Part shown: piece by piece, positions 36,460-36,518 of the stretch
How the letters are laid out: every line of letters starts with the position of its first letter
Numbering within the stretch: position 1 is the first letter of the stretch
Source of the DNA: Propioniciclava sp. MC1595
GTDB taxonomy: Bacteria; Actinomycetota; Actinomycetes; Propionibacteriales; Propionibacteriaceae
Reading direction: 5' to 3'
Length of the DNA stretch: 64,000 nucleotides
Assembly (NCBI RefSeq): GCF_017569205.1
Contig: NZ_CP071870.1
Span: 1,364,001 to 1,428,000, forward strand
Notes under the pieces: generated by a model
Database searches by the model: none
Told to the model about the DNA's origin: nothing
What the model saw: the letters and a program-made list of their open reading frames with translations, nothing else
Position numbers and translations under genes: made by a program

Positions 36460-36518
36460 GGACGGCGGCCCGGCCGTGTGCAGCGACTCCTAGACTGCAC
36501 ACGGCCGGGCCGCCGTCC
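36460..36518 (+). promoter_or_regulatory. 24-bp perfect inverted repeat with -10 box in its loop, upstream of gdhA
   Basis: Left arm 36460-36483 and right arm 36495-36518 are perfectly complementary over 24 bp, separated by 11 nt (CGACTCCTAGA). TAGACT at 36491-36496 spans the loop and the first bases of the right arm and fits the -10 pattern used in this window, 52 nt before the gdhA ATG. The element follows the leuA stop by 32 nt. It could terminate leuA transcription (no T-run), act as an operator over the gdhA promoter, or fold in the 5' end of the gdhA message. Confidence 0.7.

Follow-up and report, generated by a model that had tools for sequence, protein, structure and literature searches.

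The window (the whole 64-kb stretch of DNA analysed) lies on a complete chromosome of 3.43 Mb (genome G000), whose closest named relative by glutamate dehydrogenase protein is Propioniciclava sinopodophylli (99% identity). Between leuA and gdhA this genome carries a long inverted repeat whose arms, loop and flanking signals are listed in Table 1.

Table 1. Features of the leuA–gdhA junction, with coordinates counted from the first letter of the window
Feature	Coordinates	Strand	Description
leuA	34667..36427	+	2-isopropylmalate synthase, 586 aa; upstream gene; Pfam HMGL-like, IPMS_D2, LeuA_dimer
GTGGGA element	36457..36462	+	34 nt before TAGACT
Left arm	36460..36483	+	GGACGGCGGCCCGGCCGTGTGCAG; starts 32 nt past the leuA stop codon
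Loop	36484..36494	+	CGACTCCTAGA; 11 nt
TAGACT	36491..36496	+	Predicted gdhA -10 box; the loop holds TAGA, the right arm opens with CT
Right arm	36495..36518	+	CTGCACACGGCCGGGCCGCCGTCC; predicted gdhA transcript start within, ~36502-36504
Apparent insertion relative to G001/G002	36503..36518	+	GGCCGGGCCGCCGTCC; 16 nt; exact reverse complement of 36460-36475
Tail after stem	36519..36528	+	GGTCGTTGCG; weakly T-containing; expected leuA transcript end
gdhA	36549..37892	+	Glutamate dehydrogenase, 447 aa; downstream gene; Pfam ELFV_dehydrog, ELFV_dehydrog_N

The arms pair at 24/24 positions around the 11-nt loop, just as the original prediction had described, and its statement that a stem this long is far stronger than the other hairpins of the window (5-12 bp) agrees with a runner-up of 12 bp among short-loop inverted repeats. 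When the window was rewritten as order-3 Markov versions (n = 5), the longest inverted repeat was 14 bp. By calculation, if bases were independent (72.9% GC; a pair matching with probability 0.302; loops of 0-20), such a repeat would be expected ~4e-7 times per window, which excludes chance pairing of independent bases as its origin. The RNA of positions 36440-36540 folds at -71.8 kcal/mol (z = -6.9), and the palindrome as single-strand DNA at -38.9 kcal/mol (z = -10). No Rfam match was found in the window, and a known RNA family or riboswitch was therefore rejected. In a 464-kb sample of its own genome the palindrome is the second-longest perfect inverted repeat. The longest, with 27-bp arms and zero spacer (CATTTCCGGGTGGCGTGACCCCAAGGATCCTTGGGGTCACGCCACCCGGAAATG), lies at L182:6600-6653 (G000:C1, about 3166600-3166653), 17 nt past the end of a minus-strand gene, with TTTCC coming next on the minus strand; it is probably another terminator.

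TAGACT is the sole TANNNT in the 100 nt upstream of gdhA. The original prediction had placed this -10 box in the loop, which is right for TAGA, but its CT forms the first bases of the right arm. Exactly one TANNNT occurs in the 100 nt before gdhA, 37-59 nt from the start, in 9/9 genus members, with or without the palindrome; its forms among the nine orthologues are TAGACT, TAAACT, TAGAAT, TAGGAT and TAGGCT. Genomes G006 and G012, which have only a diverged gdhA located away from leuA, were left out of this count. By shuffling, the chance of the pattern is 0.08-0.32 per genome, and since the genomes are related these chances do not simply multiply. Because the box is kept in the nine orthologues regardless of the palindrome, it is probably the real gdhA -10, with the TANNNT form of an actinobacterial housekeeping-type promoter, and this conservation bears out the -10 box originally claimed. 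A gdhA promoter starting near 36502-36504 is likely, the start site being placed by its distance from the -10 box. A promoter scan of 34000-39000 recognised no TTGACA-like -35 box at 16-18 nt spacing; the -35 position is occupied by the GC-rich left arm, and in actinobacteria the -35 box is often weak or absent. A GTGG(G/A/T) element stands upstream of the -10 box in 6/9 genus members, at 34 nt in G000, G004, G007, G002 and G009 and at 33 nt in G001, and is a possible activator or upstream promoter element. A second candidate for a hairpin with a -10 box in its loop (L178, 15340-15379) was rejected: its box belongs to the opposite strand, and the hairpin does no more than follow a gene end.

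The palindrome is recognisable in 2/12 other genus genomes, G004 and G007, with arms of 24-25 nt that pair imperfectly. Divergence among these three genomes is 3-11% in the palindrome, compared with 21-56% in the adjoining non-coding stretches and 6-27% at fourfold sites, and the conserved segment spans the arms and the -10 box together. Because pairing is imperfect in G004 and G007, and no compensatory changes were seen, this conservation does not demonstrate selection on pairing as such. The low divergence between G000 and G004 partly reflects recent common ancestry of the gdhA block. Over positions 34650-38050 of the window, the fourfold-site difference from G004 is 6% in gdhA and 23% in leuA, and identity drops sharply just past gdhA, from about 37799. 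Such a mosaic is suggestive of recombination, one boundary lying close to the palindrome and another immediately beyond gdhA.

Some trace of how the palindrome arose may be kept in the length of the gdhA leader. The palindrome clade has 57-59 nt between the -10 box and the ATG, against 41 nt for G002 and 43 nt for G001, and the surplus of ~16 nt corresponds to the outer right arm. Because the leader is longer by this amount and the left-arm side shows no change in length, ~16 nt of the right arm are probably an inverted duplication of the left arm, inserted downstream of the -10 box. Template switching, which creates perfect stems in one event (PMC8794818), may have copied ~16 nt of the left arm, in inverted orientation, at a shorter inner inverted repeat. 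We keep this origin as a tentative one because the left arm cannot be aligned base by base with G001 or G002, and because leaders of 56 nt (G005) and 49 nt (G008) occur without the palindrome. A single quasipalindrome-correction event, proposed for a repeat perfect in G000 and imperfect in G004, was rejected: copying either G004 arm fails to yield the G000 arm.

On the leuA side, a hairpin is found 3-20 nt past the stop codon in 8/8 palindrome-less relatives. These hairpins are unrelated in sequence, GC-rich and U-poor in their tails, with no U-tract, and seven of the eight have at least 14 pairs when G-U pairs or one mismatch are admitted (a count of perfect pairs only misses such stems). For comparison, such stems occur in G000 at 13.9% of gene ends whose following gap measures at least 60 nt and at 0% of mid-gene windows. 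The three palindrome genomes (G000, G004 and G007) have no separate strong hairpin after leuA; because of this, the palindrome, the only candidate there, appears to take the place of the leuA hairpin. In two relatives, extra DNA of about 1.3 kb (G008:C236) and 2.2 kb (G009:C109) parts leuA from gdhA. In G008 this DNA seems to code for the end of a LuxR-type regulator. In both relatives the hairpin after leuA and the -10 box of gdhA still flank it.

Stems of at least 14 bp number 15 in the 464-kb sample, 12 of them downstream of stop codons and 1 intragenic, and the 8 nt that follow the stop-codon hairpins hold a mean of 2.46 T versus a background of 1.12. Long U-poor hairpins after genes are thus a habit of the host genome, since 12 of the 15 follow stops and their tails are weakly T-enriched. 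After the palindrome the first 8 nt of the tail (GGTCGTTG) include 3 T, against the at least 5 required of a canonical (L-shaped) intrinsic terminator, which is ruled out; the scan for canonical terminators, which also limits the loop to 8 nt, found no such pattern at 34000-39000. What stands after leuA is a strong hairpin, rich in GC, that lies no more than about 50 nt from the stop and lacks a U-tract, namely, the position and make-up of an I-shaped terminator. Terminators of this shape, within 50 bp of stop codons, have been described in mycobacteria (PMC12288462) and have been invoked for 3' ends without a U-tract in Streptomyces (PMC8269248). That leuA transcripts end here, as the original prediction had proposed, gains support from the unrelated hairpins that relatives keep at the same post-leuA site, and from the clustering of the genome's long hairpins past stop codons. 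Self-sufficient termination by U-less hairpins is disputed: mycobacterial RNA polymerase reportedly requires a U-tract (the position attributed to Czyz et al. 2014), and Ahmad 2020 is said to be on the side of self-sufficiency. Given the U-poor tail and this reported requirement, the hairpin may do no more than shield a 3' end that Rho or a nuclease has generated.

Overall we judge it fairly probable that the palindrome is a leuA terminator, or 3'-end-forming hairpin, of the I-shaped actinobacterial kind, overlaid on the gdhA promoter. A polymerase arriving from leuA would copy both arms, and the nascent RNA would fold as a 24-bp hairpin and bring transcription to a stop just past 36518, either directly or with the aid of NusG or Rho. 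A polymerase setting out from the gdhA promoter (TAGACT, start about 36502-36504) would copy the right arm alone; as follows from this geometry, with the start inside the right arm and a single arm in the transcript, gdhA mRNA would lack the left arm, form no hairpin and escape termination. Both parts are ordinary for such bacteria; what is unusual is only their overlap, which puts the -10 box at the tip of the hairpin. A further reading, to which we give little credence, makes the terminator-tip -10 box a self-insulating junction coupling leuA and gdhA: the polymerase ending leuA would be released onto the gdhA promoter, there either to block it (interference) or to restart (recycling). If true, this would link leucine synthesis flux to glutamate dehydrogenase expression without a regulator protein.

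Alternatively, the palindrome may be only a mutational by-product, that is, an inverted duplication without function beyond the conserved -10 box that it encloses. The leader length difference fits an inverted copy of the left arm, template switching can make perfect stems in a single event (PMC8794818), and pairing is already broken in G004 and G007; nonetheless the flanks have diverged far more than the palindrome, whose place is one at which all relatives have some other hairpin, otherwise missing here, and we consider this explanation unlikely, though not negligible. Insertion of a REP- or MITE-like palindrome, mobile or repeated, at the leuA–gdhA junction would suit a long perfect intergenic inverted repeat confined to one clade. 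That the genome holds a single copy, with no sequence besides the two arms matching at up to 3 mismatches, already largely refutes it. The absence of an Rfam match also speaks against it, and the left arm fills ancestral promoter spacing rather than forming an added block; we see almost no chance of it.

Two readings would instead give the palindrome a role in controlling the gdhA promoter. It overlaps the promoter symmetrically and its inner half-sites (GTGCAG-N11-CTGCAC) are retained in G000, G004 and G007, as might be expected if a dimeric repressor or activator bound there, possibly according to nitrogen or leucine status. The genome search that the original prediction had suggested for the same palindrome elsewhere returned only this locus, however, with no second arm copy in 3.43 Mb at up to 3 mismatches. 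The TGTGCAG-N11-CTGCACA pattern was counted 71 times, versus 71 for the reversed control, its best other sites having 2 mismatches, and the repeat is absent from 6/9 orthologous promoters although their -10 box is the same. Operators, moreover, rarely need 24 perfect bp, and the dimeric-regulator site seems to us quite improbable. Supercoiling-driven extrusion of a cruciform could also control whether RNA polymerase reaches the -10 box of gdhA, which the 24-bp arms, the box at the tip and the stable DNA fold noted above would allow; but the arrangement is not conserved across the genus and with very GC-rich arms extrusion is kinetically slow. Cruciform control is not needed to explain the palindrome, and we regard it as very improbable.

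The favoured reading, a leuA terminator laid over the gdhA promoter, is a combination of known parts even in its -10 box at the tip. Like the I-shaped terminators of actinobacteria, the palindrome is a long GC-rich hairpin that comes shortly past a stop codon and has a scant U-tract or none; unlike them it has a perfect 24-bp stem that begins 32 nt past the stop and overlaps the next promoter, and its termination is predicted. The frd/ampC junction of E. coli likewise has an upstream end signal that shares DNA with the promoter region of the next gene, as that of leuA would with the gdhA promoter; the differences are that here the -10 box sits at the hairpin tip, and that the gdhA transcript, having one arm, should escape attenuation. 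As in template-switch hairpins (PMC8794818), the perfect stem is explicable by one inverted-copy event beside a shorter inverted repeat; those cases concern RNA genes, whereas ours is a bacterial intergenic terminator/promoter whose ancestral state is deduced from two or three relatives.

Comparison across the genus shows how a strikingly perfect palindrome can consist of two ordinary signals that occupy the same site, one ending a gene's transcription and the other starting that of its neighbour. The locus appears to catch a terminator hairpin in the course of being replaced, within a genus, by a newly duplicated one, and it offers a compact test case both for the origin of long stems and for whether U-poor hairpins terminate transcription in actinobacteria.
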